Positions 718 to 13,116 of a stretch of 21,050 nucleotides of DNA are shown piece by piece. The notes beneath the pieces are model-generated. The model worked only from the letters and a program-made list of their open reading frames with translations, was not told the DNA's origin and did no database searches. A program made the translations under genes and the position numbers. The DNA is from a virus, in IMG/VR virus record IMGVR_UViG_3300032288_003545, positions 1-21,050 of that record, one strand, 5' to 3'. The stretch's first letter is position 1. Every line of letters starts with the position of its first letter.

Positions 718-2598
718 GATGGCACCTCCCAAGTCAAATCCTCCATGAGGGTTAAAGAACTGCGTCTGCTGCCCCGGATTAAATGTCTCTCTAAATATCT
801 GTGTTAAGGCAGGATCTTCTAGAATAGGTTCATTCAGAATAATGCGCGCCAAGCAGAAAGCAAAGTTGATCGCATGCAAAGTATCATCTGCTTTAGATCC
901 ATGCCGTTGATATCTAAAACCTGAATTACCTCCGACTGTTTCTGTTGGTACGCGGTACAGGTTCAGTAATTCAAGAAGACGTTCTTGGGCGAGCTCCCAG
1001 GAATAACATCTGAATCTTCTACTTTTAATAGCCTGATATAAGCTAGTAATAGATTCAGTTCTATTCAGCGAGTACTGGTTAAACCACCCAGGGCCACTGC
1101 TTGGTGCCTTAATCAAAGCTGACTGCGGGCCAACATAACCAAATATGAAATGTCTCTCTGGGCGAATAATGGGATTCTCGCGAAGCAGCATATTATAAGC
1201 CGCGCCAACGCCGAAGTCAGAAGCAATACCTATGCAGTTATAAGCTTTGTGATCTTCGCAAATCTGGTTTGAAATACTTCTGTAGTCCATACCAGAATAT
1301 TGCCTGATGTGTATAATTTCAATACTACCATCCCAGCAAATACCAAGTATAGCATGAACAGTATAGGAAACTTTCGTTTTAGTAGCTGGGTTATAATCAG
1401 AACCACCCCAGTCACACCCTGATACTGTGTATTTATATCTTCTTTGTGATGGGTGTGATAAACTTTTTAAAGTCTCAGGTGTCTCAGGAAGAACACATAT
1501 ATTCTTTAGATCCTGAGTTGTAATTTCCCGCATACCCTCTTCTGTAGGGATACCTAGAATTTCCTGCAGGAACTTCTTGATGTCATAGCTCTGAAATGCG
1601 TTCCAGATTTCCATCCATTTCTGAGGAATATTAGCGTAATCAGGAATGATAATCTGAGGGATGTGGAATCCTAGATATCCTTGTTCAAAGTTAGATTGAA
1701 TCTGATGTACGAATCTGCCATCAGTTACATCGATTACTTTACCAGAAGCTGGATTGGTAAGTCCTTGCGGTTGAATGGCTTTAAGAATGTCCTCTTTATC
1801 TGAGCAGTTAAGCCAGCCCTGGCCTACACTATTAGAATGGTAGCCGGGAGCACGGATTAACCAAGCAGCTTGGCTAGACTCTAAAAATTTAGTTTCTAAT
1901 AATGAGTCAGTCGTAGTGGATGTGCCTGCATAAATAGTAGTAGGCATACGTGAAGCCTTTTGGCACTGCTCGATGTCAGGAAGGAAGTCTGGATCAAGTA
2001 ACTGACACTCATCAAACAGTGCTTCGTCTGTAGTTTTAGAACGAGCTTCCTGTGTATCCGTCAAGCACTTGACCAGCATAGTCACAGACTCATTTGGATA
2101 CTCTTTATATTTTAAGTTCTGTCTATAATCTTTATGTACCTGATAGAACCTAAAAGCTCTCTCCATTTCCCGGACACGGTTCGCATACGTATCCAAGAAT
2201 GATTGGTGCGGAACAATATACATACTGCGCCTTTTGCGCATAATGTGCGCGTACATTAACTGTCGGGCTCCGAACGACGTAGACTTTCCAATCTGACGTC
2301 CTGCTCGTATACTCAGAAACCCGCCAATCTGCATATGAAACATAGCGAAGGAATAAGGTCGTGCAGAACAGGATAATGGTTTATCGTATGGATACTGAGG
2401 AAAGAAGTAAGGTACCAACAAACCGGCATTGTATTTGCAAAGTCTATAAATATCTATTATCCTACTAGCTATCTTGTCACTACCATGCGGATCTCCATCG
2501 GTTTCTTTTTCTAATCGTTTGATATCGTCAGTTAAAGCTTTAAGCTTATACCGAAACTCCGCATTTGTTTTGACTTCCCAGTTTAAATCAATGTACAT
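709..2598 (-). CDS. Terminase large subunit (packaging ATPase/nuclease)
   Basis: This 629-aa protein is the motor that packages phage DNA into proheads and cuts the concatemer. The N-terminal ATPase carries a Walker A motif AGRQIGKST at residues 99-107, a Walker B LFDE at 184-187 and a motif III-like AGTSTTT near 214-220. The C-terminal RNase H-like nuclease shows acidic positions in GCDWGGSD (D386), ASDFG (D451) and KADDTLHA (D561/D562), which is the usual order for the family. The length is typical. The gene is the only long leftward gene in the first 8 kb, and its ATG (2596-2598) is 2 bp from the start codon of the next rightward gene, so its promoter must lie inside that neighbour. No small terminase subunit is visible in the window. 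Confidence 0.95.
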   Translation of the reverse strand: MYIDLNWEVKTNAEFRYKLKALTDDIKRLEKETDGDPHGSDKIASRIIDIYRLCKYNAGLLVPYFFPQYPYDKPLSCSARPYSFAMFHMQIGGFLSIRAGRQIGKSTSFGARQLMYAHIMRKRRSMYIVPHQSFLDTYANRVREMERAFRFYQVHKDYRQNLKYKEYPNESVTMLVKCLTDTQEARSKTTDEALFDECQLLDPDFLPDIEQCQKASRMPTTIYAGTSTTTDSLLETKFLESSQAAWLIRAPGYHSNSVGQGWLNCSDKEDILKAIQPQGLTNPASGKVIDVTDGRFVHQIQSNFEQGYLGFHIPQIIIPDYANIPQKWMEIWNAFQSYDIKKFLQEILGIPTEEGMREITTQDLKNICVLPETPETLKSLSHPSQRRYKYTVSGCDWGGSDYNPATKTKVSYTVHAILGICWDGSIEIIHIRQYSGMDYRSISNQICEDHKAYNCIGIASDFGVGAAYNMLLRENPIIRPERHFIFGYVGPQSALIKAPSSGPGWFNQYSLNRTESITSLYQAIKSRRFRCYSWELAQERLLELLNLYRVPTETVGGNSGFRYQRHGSKADDTLHAINFAFCLARIILNEPILEDPALTQIFRETFNPGQQTQFFNPHGGFDLGGAISG

Positions 2599-2837: not shown

Positions 2838-3255
2838 AGTTGAGAAGACGGAAAATAAATTGTCTGAGAATTTTCAGAAAGTTCTTGCAACTCTTCAAGA
2901 AATTGCTAAAAAACTTCCAGAAACCGAAAAGGCATTTGACCCCATCTCTTATTTAATTAAGTCTCTCAAAGACAGTGATGTCCTAATTGAATACAAAATT
3001 ATAGCCCACAGTAAAGATGGTGAGATATTCAATATCGAAGGAGTAAACAATCTACCCAGACTGTTTGATGAATCGATGCTTCCAGAAGCGCCTACCAATT
3101 TTGAAAACGCATTTAACTCTAGCATTATCAGGCCTGCTTTAAATGCATTCATGAAATACACCCGGGATAAGGTTGAAGAATATAAGAAACCATCTTCAGC
3201 TGCCCAATCGTTAATGTTACCTAATACCGAACAGCAAGACTTCATATCAGAATAA
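2797..3255 (+). CDS. Unknown phage protein, 152 aa
   Basis: I do not recognise this protein. It begins with a polar Thr/Glu/Lys-rich stretch, then a likely amphipathic helix around residues 25-45 and a mixed alpha/beta middle; the C-terminal tail is Gln/Ser-rich. No membrane segment or metal motif is seen. It starts inside the 78-aa gene (41-nt overlap) and ends 4 nt before the thymidylate synthase ATG. The three genes therefore look like one operon that ends at the terminator near 4075-4103. Confidence 0.75.
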
Positions 3256-3259
3256 AGTT

Positions 3260-4054
3260 ATGATTGAGTACCAAAAGTTAATGAGGCATGTATTGGAGAA
3301 TGGTGTGTACAAGATGGATAGGACGGGCACAGGTGCCATTTCCGTATTCGGTACACAGAGTCGTTATAATCTGACCGAAGGCTTTCCTTTGGTGACGACA
3401 AAGAAGATGCATTTGAAATCTATTATCCATGAACTGCTCTGGTTCATTAGGGGAGATACAAATGTTAAATATCTTCAAGATAACGGTGTGACCATCTGGG
3501 ATGAATGGGCTGGACCAGATGGCGAGCTAGGACCTATCTACGGAAAACAATGGCGTAGCTGGGAAACTCGAGATGGAACTATTGATCAGTTATTCAATGT
3601 TATCGAAGGACTGAAAAACAATCCACATAGTCGTAGGCATATTGTTACCGCCTGGAATCCTGCAGATGTAGAAACAATGGCGCTACCTCCTTGCCATGCT
3701 TTCTTCCAATTCTTTGTGGATGATGAGGATCGCCTTAGCCTGCAGCTATATCAGCGTAGCGCCGATGTATTCCTCGGTGTACCATTTAACATTGCCAGCT
3801 ACTCATTGCTGTTAATGATGGTTGCTCAGGTTACTGGTTATACACCGCATGAATTTATTCATACTATCGGTGACGCTCATTTATATTCCAATCATATTGA
3901 GCAAGCCAAACTCCAGCTTTCCCGAGAACCTCTGGAAAGTCCTATTATGAAGATCAATCCCAATATTAAAAATATTGATGGCTTCAAATATACGGATTTT
4001 GAATTGGTGAATTACGAATGTTATCCTGCTATCAAAGCAGAGATTGCCGTTTAA
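3260..4054 (+). CDS. thyA: Thymidylate synthase (folate-dependent ThyA type)
   Basis: The 264-aa product converts dUMP to dTMP using methylene-tetrahydrofolate, which boosts the thymidine pool for phage DNA synthesis. The length equals that of bacterial ThyA. The dUMP/folate loop DRTGTG is at residues 20-25 (R21), the catalytic cysteine lies in [10 protein letters not shown] (C145), and [12 protein letters not shown] (162-173) and PFNIASY (N177) are intact. The C-terminus ends in IKAEIAV, close to the usual closing tail. All active-site residues I can see are present, so the enzyme should be active. There is no Shine-Dalgarno sequence before the ATG. A hairpin terminator follows 20 nt after the stop codon. 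Confidence 0.97.
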
Positions 4055-4074: not shown

Positions 4075-4103
4075 AAGGGGTGCTCGTAACTGGGCACCCT
4101 TTT
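4075..4103 (+). terminator. Intrinsic terminator after thymidylate synthase
   Basis: AAGGGGTGC (4075-4083) pairs with GCACCCTTT (4094-4102) to form a 9-bp stem with one G-U pair and a 10-nt loop, running into T4100-4103. It sits just after the thyA stop. Its T-run is directly continuous with the first copy of the 20-bp promoter-like element, so the terminator and the next promoter form one compact boundary. Confidence 0.75.
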
Positions 4104-7242: not shown

Positions 7243-7410
7243 ATGGATAAAATTTTAAAATATATCAAAGAGCAACTGGAGCTTATCAAAAATCAGAAAA
7301 CATATACTGATTGGGAAGAAGCCAGAAGAGAAGGGGCCGAGGGTGCTCTAGAAGATTTGCTGGAACAATTTTCAAATCCATGTTTATCTAAAAACAGTTG
7401 CAATACTTAA
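7243..7410 (+). CDS. Small unknown protein, 55 aa
   Basis: The ATG at 7243 lies 5 nt after the terminator T-run, and the stop TAA is at 7408-7410. The product has a Lys/Glu-rich helical N-terminal two thirds containing YTDWEEARREGAEGALEDLL (residues 21-40), and a C-terminal tail with two cysteines. There is no Shine-Dalgarno sequence and no obvious promoter, so expression would depend on terminator readthrough. The charged, helix-like composition supports a real gene, but confidence is moderate. Confidence 0.5.
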   Translation: MDKILKYIKEQLELIKNQKTYTDWEEARREGAEGALEDLLEQFSNPCLSKNSCNT

Positions 7411-7415
7411 CATTA

Positions 7416-7435
7416 TTGTGTTATATAAATTTGTA
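7416..7435 (+). promoter_or_regulatory. 20-bp promoter-like element, copy 3 (drives the structured RNA)
   Basis: This is the third identical copy of TTGTGTTATATAAATTTGTA, sharing TTA upstream and CG downstream with copy 2. It lies 5 nt after the stop of the 55-aa gene. No credible gene follows for about 440 nt; a GC-rich structured stretch and a strong terminator follow instead. Confidence 0.75.
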
Positions 7436-7436
7436 C

Positions 7437-7853
7437 GGATAGTAATATCTATACACTCTTAACAGGGCAGTGTAATTGCTGTTAAGTTTCTTTAGGCGCT
7501 GCCTCCTCTACCAGTGGGAAGACACTCTGGAGTGACGTGGAAATCGTCACTCTCTTAAAGCGCCCACGGCGTACCGAATGGTATTCTGTGACGGTTACAA
7601 GGCCGAATGCCCCGACTGGGTACATTAGTCGGTGCTGCTCTGCGCCTTTGCAGAGAACGTTGAGTAAGAGCAATCTGGATATGATATTGGCGACTAGTTA
7701 GTCGAGCGATTACATGGTTGCTGCAATAACCATGGTGTTCGCCTTATCCAGGAAACAACGTCCCATCGACAAGACTCCAGCGGGCACGCAGAGTATTAGC
7801 GACCAAGTTGTAGGAGAGCGTCCAGGTAGAAATACCTGGGCGCTTTTCTTTTA
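7437..7853 (+). ncRNA. Large structured non-coding RNA, about 415 nt, class not recognised
   Basis: The span from promoter-like copy 3 to a strong terminator has no convincing reading frame and is richer in GC than its flanks. Helices seen by eye: 7458-7465/7479-7486 (8 bp); 7495-7500/7559-7564 (6 bp) enclosing 7530-7537/7545-7552 (8 bp); 7567-7570/7602-7605 enclosing hairpins 7572-7583 and 7587-7599; 7612-7617/7627-7632 (6 bp); 7638-7643/7650-7655 (6 bp); 7657-7662/7756-7761 (6 bp) enclosing 7675-7681/7745-7751 (7 bp). The last helix holds hairpin 7691-7704, stem 7706-7709/7739-7742 and hairpin 7713-7719/7728-7734 (7 bp). A GGTAC in the loop at 7619-7623 could pair with GTACC at 7571-7575. 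I see no tmRNA, RNase P, tRNA or clear group I intron signature. GOLLD- and ROOL-type phage RNAs are comparable in concept, but from memory are longer. Confidence 0.8.
7817..7853 (+). terminator. Intrinsic terminator with GAAA tetraloop, end of the structured RNA
   Basis: AGCGTCCAGGTA (7817-7828), loop GAAA (7829-7832) and TACCTGGGCGCT (7833-7844) form a 12-bp stem with one G-U pair, followed by TTTCTTTTAT. The stability of the stem and its position mark the 3' end of the unit 3 transcript. Confidence 0.93.
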
Positions 7854-7880: not shown

Positions 7881-8075
7881 ATGAAATCTTTGTTTTATAA
7901 AATAAAATACAAACTCAATAGAAGATGTAAATATTTATTAAAGCATAAATGGCATAAGGTTGAGCCTACGGAAAGAGAATGCCAAGTAGCGTTGAGAATA
8001 GGAGTGCATCCTTTAAAGGATATGCATGAATGTACCAAGTGTGGTCAGCGTGGTTGGTTATTCCCTATTAACTAA
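7881..8075 (+). CDS. Small basic protein with a CxxC motif, 64 aa
   Basis: The first half is very basic (Lys/Arg-rich, about residues 7-25), and HKWHKV is followed later by HECTKCGQRGW near residues 49-59. The single CxxC plus nearby His/Cys could form a small zinc site resembling short phage zinc-ribbon proteins, but I cannot assign a family. The AT-rich leader has no Shine-Dalgarno sequence. The stop codon overlaps the leftward kinase-like gene by 8 bp. No terminator separates the two convergent genes. The gene begins 28 nt after the terminator T-run of the structured RNA. Confidence 0.7.
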   Translation: MKSLFYKIKYKLNRRCKYLLKHKWHKVEPTERECQVALRIGVHPLKDMHECTKCGQRGWLFPIN

Positions 8076-10123: not shown

Positions 10124-12623
10124 ACACAGACAGCTGGAGGCAACTCTAGATGGCTCTGTTGTTGGATTGATGGGACCTAATGGTTCTGGTAAATCCACCA
10201 TTCTAAAATTAATTCATTTCCTTGTCACCGGTTGGACACCAGCTAAGGAAACACAGGAATCATTTATCCGTAAGGTAGACCCAGAGATTGAAGCCGAACC
10301 TTCATATGGTCTAGCTGAGATGGAATTCTTTGCCCAGGGTAATACATATAGGATTAGTCGCAAGATTGGATCTCCATCTTCTAGAAAGCTTGCTAAGCTC
10401 GACAGTAAGGGAGCCGAAATCAAAGAAGATACCTATACCCGGGCAGATGAAATTCAGGCTGCTCTGACTGATATTCTTGGTGCAGATAAATATGCTATTG
10501 ATAATGCAGTGTTCCCTGAACAAGGTGCCTTGGATAAAATCCTATTTGGTTCCCAGGCAGAACGTGAGGAGTTGTTGGTAAAACTTCTCCTGCTCGGTCA
10601 TATGCAGAAGGTAGCAGATGTAGCTGCAGGTAAGATTAAAATACTAGGCTCTGAGATCCAGGACTTCTCGACTTTGCACGATGAGTTACAAGCATCCAGG
10701 AATAGCGCAGAAGTAGATCTAGCTAATGCTGAAGAACAGCTAATGCGTACGCGCAGTTATGATGCAGAAATTAAACTGTATGAAGAATGGGAGCGTAACC
10801 TCAGTGATATAGTTTCAAATTCATCTCATCTGCTTAACGCCAAAAATGCTGCGCGTGTAAATGATGAGAAAGCTAAAGCTACGCTGGATGAACAAGCTAC
10901 CAAGCTAGGTTTAGTTTTGAAATCACCAGATGAGCTGGGAGACTGGATTGAGAAGCTTAAAGATAAAATTAAAGCTACACGCCAGACGGTGACCACACTG
11001 CAGGATACCAAAAGTAAAGCTGTGCAGTACAAGAGCATCACGGAACGTGTAGATAATTATAATAATGATCTAAGGCAGCTTAAAGCTGATTGTCCTGCTG
11101 CTGTAGATCCTAATCTGATCACTGCCCTTGATAGAGGAATCCGAGAGCAACAGAATCGAGAACATTACAGATCACAGCTTGCTGATGCTACTACCAGAGG
11201 TAAGGACACTCGAGACAAAATCGAAAGACTTACAGAAATTGTTAATGAGCTATCCGCTGAGTTGAAGGATGTCGAAGATAAAGAACAGGTCTTATCTAAT
11301 GAGAGATCATTGTTTAAAACTATCACCGATACCTGTAAGCTTGCGCTGGATAGTAACTGCACTGCTGATTGCCCTGTGTGTGGAGAAAATGTATCTCATG
11401 AAAAACTGAGGTCCAGATTCGAAACATACAATACAAAACTAATAGAAGCTTCCAATAAGCTACGCGATATTAGTACTATTCATGCTCAGACGAGTAAACA
11501 GCTGCGTGAAATGCAGCATGAGCTTACTCAACGGCAGACGCTACTAACTGTTTATATTAAACAATATAAAGATAACAAAGCATTACTTGATGCTGGTGAA
11601 GATCAGGATGTGCAGGCTTTAAAAGCTGAGTTTACACGCCTAAATAATACTAATGCCAAGCGTGCTTCTGATATCAAAAATATAGAGAAGATTGAGTATG
11701 AAATTAAGAAATTAGAATTTGCTCTTCAAGGTTACACTGAAGAAGAAGTTAAAAGTTTCAATGAGCTTGACCTTGCTTCTTTGGATAAAGAGGTAAGCGA
11801 GCTCAATGATAAGGTCGAGCACTGGAGCTCTAAACTGGATGAGTTGTCTAAAACTTATATTACTATCAACCAACTTATTTCAGCTAGAGAAACGGAGATT
11901 AAACGCTCCGAGGAATTCGCTACTGCATGTGAAAGCTTCGCTCTAAAAAGGGATGCAATCTTTAATTCTTTTCCGCCGCAACTAAAGAAATTAGTTGAGC
12001 AAGGGGGTGAGATAAAAGACACTCTGATAGAGAACAATAAAATATATAATCAACTAGAAGCAAAAGCTGCACAGCTTAAAGTCCAGGCCAATGGCATACG
12101 GAAACGGTTACGTGAAATTGAGGACAAGATAAAGTTGGATGAAGAAAAGCGTGCTGTGATTCAAGAATTGCAGCGTGTGGTACATGCGTTCTCAAGGCAA
12201 GGTATTCCCATGTCTTATGTTCAACATAAGTTTGATAGCCTTGTCAGTATGACTCAGGACAATCTGGAAATCATGGATGCGAACTTCGCTATTATTCCGC
12301 ATCCTAATAAGCCAGTGAGTCTGCAGTTCTACCGCGTAGATGAGCCGGGTCAGGTATTGTTTGACCATGACAAGTTGTCGGGAGGTCAGAAGGTTAGGCT
12401 GTCTATTGCCTTCCTTCTAGCAGTCCAACAACTAGTTATCCCGGAATTAGGTTTCCTAGTTCTGGATGAACCCTCTACCCATTTGGATGAGGAGGCTAGA
12501 GAAAATTTAAAAGAGCTCTTGCTTAATTTGAATCAACAGCTAGAAAGTACGGATACTCAAATTCTCGTCTGCGACCACGCTAGAGAACTGGAACCTGCTT
12601 TTGTAAATGTAATTCAATTATGA
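10086..12623 (+). CDS. SbcC/Rad50-like SMC ATPase (T4 gp46-like)
   Basis: This 845-aa protein is the ATPase partner of the preceding nuclease. Walker A GPNGSGKST is at residues 30-38. Long charged coiled-coil arms flank a zinc-hook CPVC near residues 428-431. The ABC signature LSGGQKVRLS is near 764, and Walker B FLVLDEPSTHLDEE is near 789-802. The length suits a phage member, shorter than E. coli SbcC. The start lies inside the SbcD-like gene, and the stop overlaps the next gene (ATGA). There is no Shine-Dalgarno sequence, so translation is probably coupled to the upstream gene. All catalytic motifs appear intact. Confidence 0.96.
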   Translation: MRIKKLLIKNLGKHRQLEATLDGSVVGLMGPNGSGKSTILKLIHFLVTGWTPAKETQESFIRKVDPEIEAEPSYGLAEMEFFAQGNTYRISRKIGSPSSRKLAKLDSKGAEIKEDTYTRADEIQAALTDILGADKYAIDNAVFPEQGALDKILFGSQAEREELLVKLLLLGHMQKVADVAAGKIKILGSEIQDFSTLHDELQASRNSAEVDLANAEEQLMRTRSYDAEIKLYEEWERNLSDIVSNSSHLLNAKNAARVNDEKAKATLDEQATKLGLVLKSPDELGDWIEKLKDKIKATRQTVTTLQDTKSKAVQYKSITERVDNYNNDLRQLKADCPAAVDPNLITALDRGIREQQNREHYRSQLADATTRGKDTRDKIERLTEIVNELSAELKDVEDKEQVLSNERSLFKTITDTCKLALDSNCTADCPVCGENVSHEKLRSRFETYNTKLIEASNKLRDISTIHAQTSKQLREMQHELTQRQTLLTVYIKQYKDNKALLDAGEDQDVQALKAEFTRLNNTNAKRASDIKNIEKIEYEIKKLEFALQGYTEEEVKSFNELDLASLDKEVSELNDKVEHWSSKLDELSKTYITINQLISARETEIKRSEEFATACESFALKRDAIFNSFPPQLKKLVEQGGEIKDTLIENNKIYNQLEAKAAQLKVQANGIRKRLREIEDKIKLDEEKRAVIQELQRVVHAFSRQGIPMSYVQHKFDSLVSMTQDNLEIMDANFAIIPHPNKPVSLQFYRVDEPGQVLFDHDKLSGGQKVRLSIAFLLAVQQLVIPELGFLVLDEPSTHLDEEARENLKELLLNLNQQLESTDTQILVCDHARELEPAFVNVIQL

Positions 12624-13102
12624 GTGATGTAGCTACTCTGTATAATCTGAAGATCAAATTGACTTCTTCTTGGTTGGGCAATCAAAGAACTCGAGAAAAC
12701 GTTCGTCGTTTTCGCCGGGATCGAGATGGTAAACTTGCTGTAGATATGGCTCAATGGAGCTGGACCTTTCAGCAAGCTGCCGAAGCCCTGCACATGAAGG
12801 ATATCGATACGGATACTATTCGTCCACAGATGAATATAGATCCTCCGTCTTTAGTTTTATATAGACGTAACTACACTCATAAAAATAAGCAGCAATGTGA
12901 AATGTTTGAAGCCATCCGAGAAAACTGTGTTCTTACGATCCAGGTTTTGGTGACGACGACAGACAAGCAAGATAAGTTTGCTCCCGATCTGGCTAGGCTC
13001 AGAGACATATTCAAATTCACTGGTATGTTTCTGGGTCTTAGCCCTTGGGGAGGTCAATACGGCTATGGTCGTTTTGATGTAGAGGAAATCACGCCTCTTT
13101 AA
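12620..13102 (+). CDS. Unknown protein of the recombination operon, 160 aa
   Basis: The function is not known to me. It begins with a beta-strand-like LKIKLTSSWLG, then a basic stretch RENVRRFRRDRDGK (residues 25-38), a Trp-rich segment and a C-terminal GLSPWGGQYGYGRFDVEEI (residues 138-156). The Gly/aromatic C-terminal segment and alternating strands recall ferredoxin-like RNA-binding proteins (RAMP type), but only loosely. It overlaps the SbcC-like stop by ATGA, so it is in the same operon and may act with SbcCD-like processing. A weak hairpin (AGAGG/CCTCT) spans its last codons. Confidence 0.8.
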   Translation: MSDVATLYNLKIKLTSSWLGNQRTRENVRRFRRDRDGKLAVDMAQWSWTFQQAAEALHMKDIDTDTIRPQMNIDPPSLVLYRRNYTHKNKQQCEMFEAIRENCVLTIQVLVTTTDKQDKFAPDLARLRDIFKFTGMFLGLSPWGGQYGYGRFDVEEITPL

Positions 13103-13116
13103 TTTAGGTATCAGAA

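Follow-up and report, generated by a model that had tools for sequence, protein, structure and literature searches.

Twister ribozymes require two pseudoknots; these lie outside what a covariance model encodes. To our knowledge, no role has been established for most bacterial and phage twister ribozymes. The ribozyme is built from a P2 stem of four pairs, a T1 pseudoknot of three Watson-Crick pairs plus an A.A contact, and a T2 pseudoknot of two pairs, and the P4 extension features an invariant G-C and a U/A (PMC5408937). Studies on the env22 twister determined that the G after the P2 3' strand (G48) activates the cleavage step (PMC12648317). The optional stem P5 is occupied in about 1% of known twisters (PMC6154101). 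GOLLD RNA is characterized by a conserved 3' part, a variable 5' part and a link to tRNA (PMC12286853).

The DNA analysed here, referred to as the window, is a stretch of 21,050 nucleotides from IMG/VR virus record IMGVR_UViG_3300032288_003545, and positions 7437-7853 hold an RNA locus of 417 nt that was compared with both systems. Twister type P1 (Rfam RF03160, clan CL00120) and the window RNA share P1, the U-A-A, a 4-bp P2, a two-nucleotide L2, P3, P4 with a U...AA.. loop, the GA after P2, a three-pair T1 and a two-pair T2, all at the expected positions. The window RNA differs from RF03160 in its T2, which is CC x GG where the consensus is GC x GC (one pair, changed on both sides), and in having two hairpins at the P5 position, where its short-form relative L006 has one. 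Also unlike RF03160, the window family lies below the Rfam cut-off and sits in a 400-nt RNA with a promoter, a terminator and a covarying 3' domain. Like GOLLD and ROOL (PMC12286853), the locus encodes a large phage non-coding RNA with a conserved 3' part, a variable 5' part and a tRNA link; however, it is smaller, has a ribozyme-like core and gives no match to either covariance model at E <= 10. The original prediction of a new RNA class holds in that no Rfam family claims the RNA at its cut-off, but its conserved middle is twister-like, a known kind of ribozyme. What is new is the variant itself, with an additional pair of hairpins in place of the rarely occupied P5 and an altered T2, together with a covarying 3' domain that has no Rfam match and a variable 5' part.

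As read from its sequence, the locus is a real promoter-to-terminator RNA gene, non-coding and structured. Its borders are set by the following features.

7437..7853, plus strand: whole non-coding RNA, predicted to start at 7433-7437 and to end 3' at the terminator
7399..7436, plus strand: promoter, TTGCAA (-35-like), 17 nt and TTATAT, overlapping a TAAATTTG (TAnnTTTG) box
7812..7849, plus strand: intrinsic terminator, a stem-loop with a GAAA loop and a T-run

The terminator was recognized in the original prediction, as was the higher GC content of the locus (49%, compared with 36% upstream and 31% downstream). The RNA is flanked by a 55-codon ORF (7243-7410) and a 64-codon ORF (7881-8075). 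The promoter-like element had been described as occurring in three identical copies. Three copies are present in the window, with starts at 4102, 4499 and 7416; two of these are identical across TTGTGTTATATAAATTTGTAC and the third has one mismatch. Throughout the window and all relatives the promoter TTGTGTTATATAAATTTGTA is confined to one strand per contig, and a control with the reversed pattern found no occurrence in the same sequences. Many of these promoter copies, in the window as well as in the relatives, are followed by a small hairpin where the transcript is predicted to begin. A Shine-Dalgarno motif precedes 13 of the 69 ORFs, with mostly A-rich sequence before the start codons instead; this feature and the TAnnTTTG promoter are presumably compatible with a Bacteroidota host.

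The absence of a convincing frame was borne out: the longest frames in 7437-7853 are broken by stops and differ among the homologues. The locus folds with a minimum free energy of -155.6, compared with -126.5 for shuffled sequence (z -5.25). This agrees with the expected excess stability, though 6 of 50 other 400-nt windows of the same phage also reach z <= -4. The mean z of those 50 windows is -2.0; RNA folding is unusually strong across the coding regions of this phage. Folding stability alone is therefore weak evidence for an RNA gene, its values being matched by windows from coding sequence of this phage. It is the compensatory changes in the homologues, together with frames that are not open across them, that establish a structured non-coding RNA.

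The relatives were reached through a neighbouring gene product of 665 residues (phrog_1735), which led to six close IMG/VR contigs (L001 to L006). The RNA is found at the same place in five of them, L001, L002, L003, L004 and L006, the last in a short form, and the compensatory changes in these five sequences uphold the prediction of a dedicated structured phage RNA. L005 has no RNA but retains the tail AGTTGTAG and the terminator directly behind the upstream gene, which indicates that the locus was lost by deletion and suggests that the phage can do without it. A covariance model of the core, R1, was built from five sequences without L006 and encodes no pseudoknots; it retrieves L006 at the same locus with an E-value of 8e-6. 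R1 gave no match in roughly 70 more distant phage loci, and no additional family member came from searching IMG/VR and 84,980 prokaryote genomes by pattern; the RNA family is narrow. A match in the genome_contigs set (L085) was a chance match within an ORF resembling a LacI-type regulator, the motif matches L111-L125 are not homologues, and matches in Flavobacterium and Tenacibaculum phages were short and weak and were discarded.

The most conserved part of the RNA is its core, which consists of the following elements.

7552..7670, plus strand: twister-like ribozyme core
7552..7555, plus strand: putative ribozyme P1, 5' strand, pairing with 7667-7670
7556..7557, plus strand: predicted cleavage site U7556^A7557, aligned to Rfam twister-P1 through L006
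7559..7562, plus strand: P2 5' strand AGCG, 4 bp with CGTT at 7658-7661
7563..7564, plus strand: L2, CC, forming the T2 pseudoknot with GG at 7601-7602
7565..7590, plus strand: P3 hairpin, with compensatory changes in 9 of 10 pairs
7592..7605, plus strand: P4 and loop L4, CGG-UUACAAGG-CCG, in which UAC at 7596-7598 forms T1 with GUA at 7664-7666
7609..7635, plus strand: P5 hairpin, which covaries
7638..7655, plus strand: extra hairpin P6, adjoining P5 and nearly invariant
7662..7666, plus strand: L1 3' side GAGUA, with the putative catalytic G7662 (G48 of env22), A7663 and the T1 strand

Among five sequences, 10 pairs of the core are changed on both sides, a number reached in 0 of 500 shuffles, and 15-16 pairs are so changed once L006 is added. 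P1, P2 and P4 are paired in 100% of cells across six sequences, and the elements follow the twister order P1-P2-P4-P2'-P1'. T1 is paired in all six and features a single compensatory event, UAC/GUA to UCC/GGA (A-U to C-G) in L006; A7663 is available for the T1 A.A contact. T2 is also paired in all six and is invariant within the family. Both pseudoknots are present although the aligning model R1 contains neither. T2, P1 and P4 give no proof by covariation, because they never vary. The active-site letters U7556-A7557-A7558, G7662, A7663 and the AA of L4 are kept in the six sequences, and the invariant G7662 lies directly 3' of the P2 3' strand. P1 comprises 4 bp in the window and is longer in the relatives, and C7552 also belongs to a hairpin upstream (Pc). 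Two three-way junctions had been proposed for the RNA. One of them, in the 3' domain (P7/P8/P9), is supported, while the other is a multi-branch loop in which P2 is joined by P3, P4, P5 and P6. The proposed long-range GGTAC/GTACC contact did not survive, since GTACC at 7571-7575 belongs to P3, where it covaries with the opposite strand, and L001, L003 and L004 have lost the GGTAC loop.

The twister assignment comes from the relatives. The L006 core gives a full-length match to Rfam twister-P1 with 29.9 bits; the E-value is 3.1e-6 for a search of the L006 contig and 4.5e-5 when 131 nt are compared with the whole of Rfam. In this alignment UAA, P2, P4 with CCAAG, GAGG and P1 coincide with elements that were defined independently by alignment of the homologues. 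L003 matched twister-P1 weakly (22.6 bits) in a permissive Rfam scan, with only the 5' half properly covered. The window core itself gives no twister match at E <= 10. Scans of the window at gathering and permissive thresholds returned only noise, with GOLLD, ROOL, tmRNA, tRNA and group I introns all without a match; matches to ctRNA_p42d and ctRNA_pGA1 are explained by the terminator hairpin. The original prediction had likewise seen no hallmark of tmRNA, RNase P, tRNA or a group I intron, and neither ARAGORN nor Rfam gives such a match over the window RNA.

A descriptor taken from the literature (PMC5408937), with a three-pair T1, a two-pair T2, a 4-bp P2 and the U/A and G-C in L4, matches the window and 5 of 5 relatives, plus one other place (L019) in 4.2 Mb. 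The same descriptor found no match in 12.5 Mb of shuffled sequence. The conserved L2 letters GC are CC in the window. These letters seem not to be obligatory, because a twister in contig L128, with an E-value of 1.2e-9 against RF03160, reads AC there. The L128 twister (1501-1565) is compact and pairs T2 as AC x GU, and the L019 element (2907-2961) is a compact twister between the genes for tRNA-Glu and tRNA-Lys that matches RF03160 with 43 bits and an E-value of 9e-10. Both share the ribozyme plan of the window RNA and lie in contigs with phrog_1735, but they lack the P5/P6 hairpins. The Rfam cut-off for twister, 67.2 bits, is reached by no family member (the best being L006), and the two compact phage twisters likewise miss it, at 43 bits. 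A twister-P1 search at E <= 0.01 found none in 14 control genomes and two in 48 other phage contigs, both of which are plausible as real twisters. Since the window is unscored and all members fall below the cut-off, membership rests on the homology to L006, the pseudoknots and the descriptor tests, from which the core is probably a true twister.

The locus is thus quite likely a dedicated phage transcription unit producing a non-coding RNA of about 417 nt, with a divergent type-P1 twister as its core that would cleave between U7556 and A7557. After transcription the core would fold with both pseudoknots and make the predicted cut. The predicted 5' product is about 120 nt long and would carry a 2',3'-cyclic phosphate end, and the predicted 3' product of about 297 nt would start with a 5'-OH and comprise the ribozyme body, followed by the domain with the three-way junction, the one made of P10-P13 and finally the terminator hairpin. 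The piece upstream of the cut would be exchangeable cargo matured by the ribozyme, and the stable 3' RNA would persist with a function of its own. Whereas the RNA gene, its homologues, their covariation and the twister layout are there to be read in the sequences, the cleavage, the product ends and the processing role are deduced from them.

It is unlikely, given the active site, that the core is a former twister that no longer cleaves and has been retained for its compact double-pseudoknot fold, with the RNA acting whole in a structural or protein-binding role. The short P1 of the window with its strand overlapping hairpin Pc, the unusual P5/P6 insertions, the L2 change and the missing Rfam score would fit such a loss of activity; however, six sequences retain every active-site letter checked as well as the two pseudoknots, and one T1 pair has changed in a compensatory way.

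In the preferred reading, that of an active twister, the cut would separate a fast-changing 5' part from the conserved remainder of the RNA, and this contrast speaks for the reading. The 5' domain of the window contains three hairpins.

7437..7450, plus strand: 5'-terminal hairpin GGATA-GTAA-TATCT, with small hairpins also after other promoter copies
7458..7486, plus strand: hairpin Pb, with a loop GTGTAAT common to L002 and L003 and a stem that covaries
7530..7552, plus strand: hairpin Pc, immediately before P1, with a T-loop-like 7-nt loop (U at position 1, A at position 5)

Two of these hairpins covary among the window, L002 and L003. In L001 the 5' part instead resembles a tRNA-Leu whose anticodon loop carries a 63-nt insert (ARAGORN, intron mode), and the T-arm of this element occupies the position of Pc. 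In L004 there are two small ORFs between the promoter and the core, which starts at the second stop codon, and L006 has almost nothing but the 5' hairpin. The 3' domain features two structured units.

7675..7751, plus strand: three-way junction of P7 (7675-7681/7745-7751), P8 (7691-7704) and P9 (7706-7742)
7755..7811, plus strand: P10, ACAAC/GTTGT, enclosing P11-P13, of which P11 covaries

This domain is kept with covariation in the window, L001, L002, L003 and L004. P7, P9 and P11 covary in these five sequences, and the observed number of paired cells is reached in 0 of 2000 shuffles. The domain has no match in Rfam. The P9 loop CTGCAA at 7721-7726 (CUGCAA in RNA) is invariant. Pairing of this loop with UUGCAG in P6 is possible, yet it is not claimed, because both sides are invariant and the pairing conflicts with P6.

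A conserved 3' part, a variable 5' part with a tRNA-like sequence in L001, and a promoter common to tRNA clusters would also suit a new ornate RNA of phages, comparable to GOLLD or ROOL in assembling with itself into a structure and in having a variable 5' region, whose twister likeness arose by chance. This is quite unlikely, since neither family gives a match at E <= 10 and a whole twister layout is unlikely to arise by chance, as the descriptor result in random sequence indicates. The 3' domain alone could work in a GOLLD/ROOL-like manner beside the ribozyme. The arrangement in L004, with its two ORFs and the core at the second stop codon, would be expected of a cis-acting 3'-end element in which ribozyme and terminator trim or control the mRNAs of the promoter, the 417-nt RNA being the case without an ORF. 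Such a role is very unlikely: no ORF lies between promoter and core in the window, L001, L002, L003 or L006, and the 3' domain covaries in five sequences. An intergenic relic that folds by chance and makes no functional RNA would account for the unexceptional fold z-score and the loss of the locus in L005, but is contradicted by extensive compensatory change in six sequences and by synteny and has next to no probability. A replication-origin transcript was also considered and rejected, as the points at which the skew turns are 4-6 kb distant, close to where gene direction changes.

The locus read as a self-cleaving transcription unit offers a concrete role for a twister, which would part a variable RNA on the 5' side from a conserved one on the 3' side, in a free-standing RNA gene that has clear borders, a predicted product on either side of the cut, and conservation in a phage lineage. 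Promoters of the same family are also found ahead of the tRNA clusters in these phages, and within the clusters lie relatives of the tRNA-like element as well as other unclassified structured RNAs. This suggests that the phages may run one programme of stable RNA production. A wider reading can be put forward tentatively, and is doubtful as a whole: a new phage RNA gene in which a built-in twister-type ribozyme would detach an exchangeable 5' cargo, be it tRNA-like, a T-loop hairpin or small ORFs, from a 3' RNA of several conserved domains. The 3' RNA would act in trans during infection, and the locus would belong to a wider unclassified set of structured RNAs expressed with the phage tRNAs. 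Divergent phage twisters can fall far below the Rfam cut-off and stay unannotated; three kinds occur in this small sample of large phages.

Several other RNAs were observed in these phages. The tRNA-like elements have a long insert that replaces the normal anticodon arm, keep the T-arm GCAGGTTCRAATCCTGCC and in some cases have an encoded CCA. The structured RNAs A-D, located among tRNA genes, are compact and closed by perfect stems of 8-12 bp. Their positions are as follows.

L103 10179-10350; L107 4045-4167; L109 1835-1917; L001 13180-13325: tRNA-like elements inside phage tRNA clusters
L108, near 773-880 and 2461-2590, minus strand: two tRNA-like elements
L098 2640-3230 (minus strand); L107 3905-4040 and 5073-5145: structured RNAs A-D

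RNAs A and B are conserved between phages, at differing places, and a search of A-D against Rfam gave no ribozyme or non-coding RNA match. At 2465-3362 of L107 a tRNA-Leu(UAA) is split by a group I intron (RF00028 at 3062-3278), which carries on the opposite strand a 187-aa ORF resembling an HNH endonuclease. In a distant phage, L067, 13-nt-like units (GAGCAGCCTTGGG-like) are repeated in a long tandem array at 12610-13110 beside the related gene.
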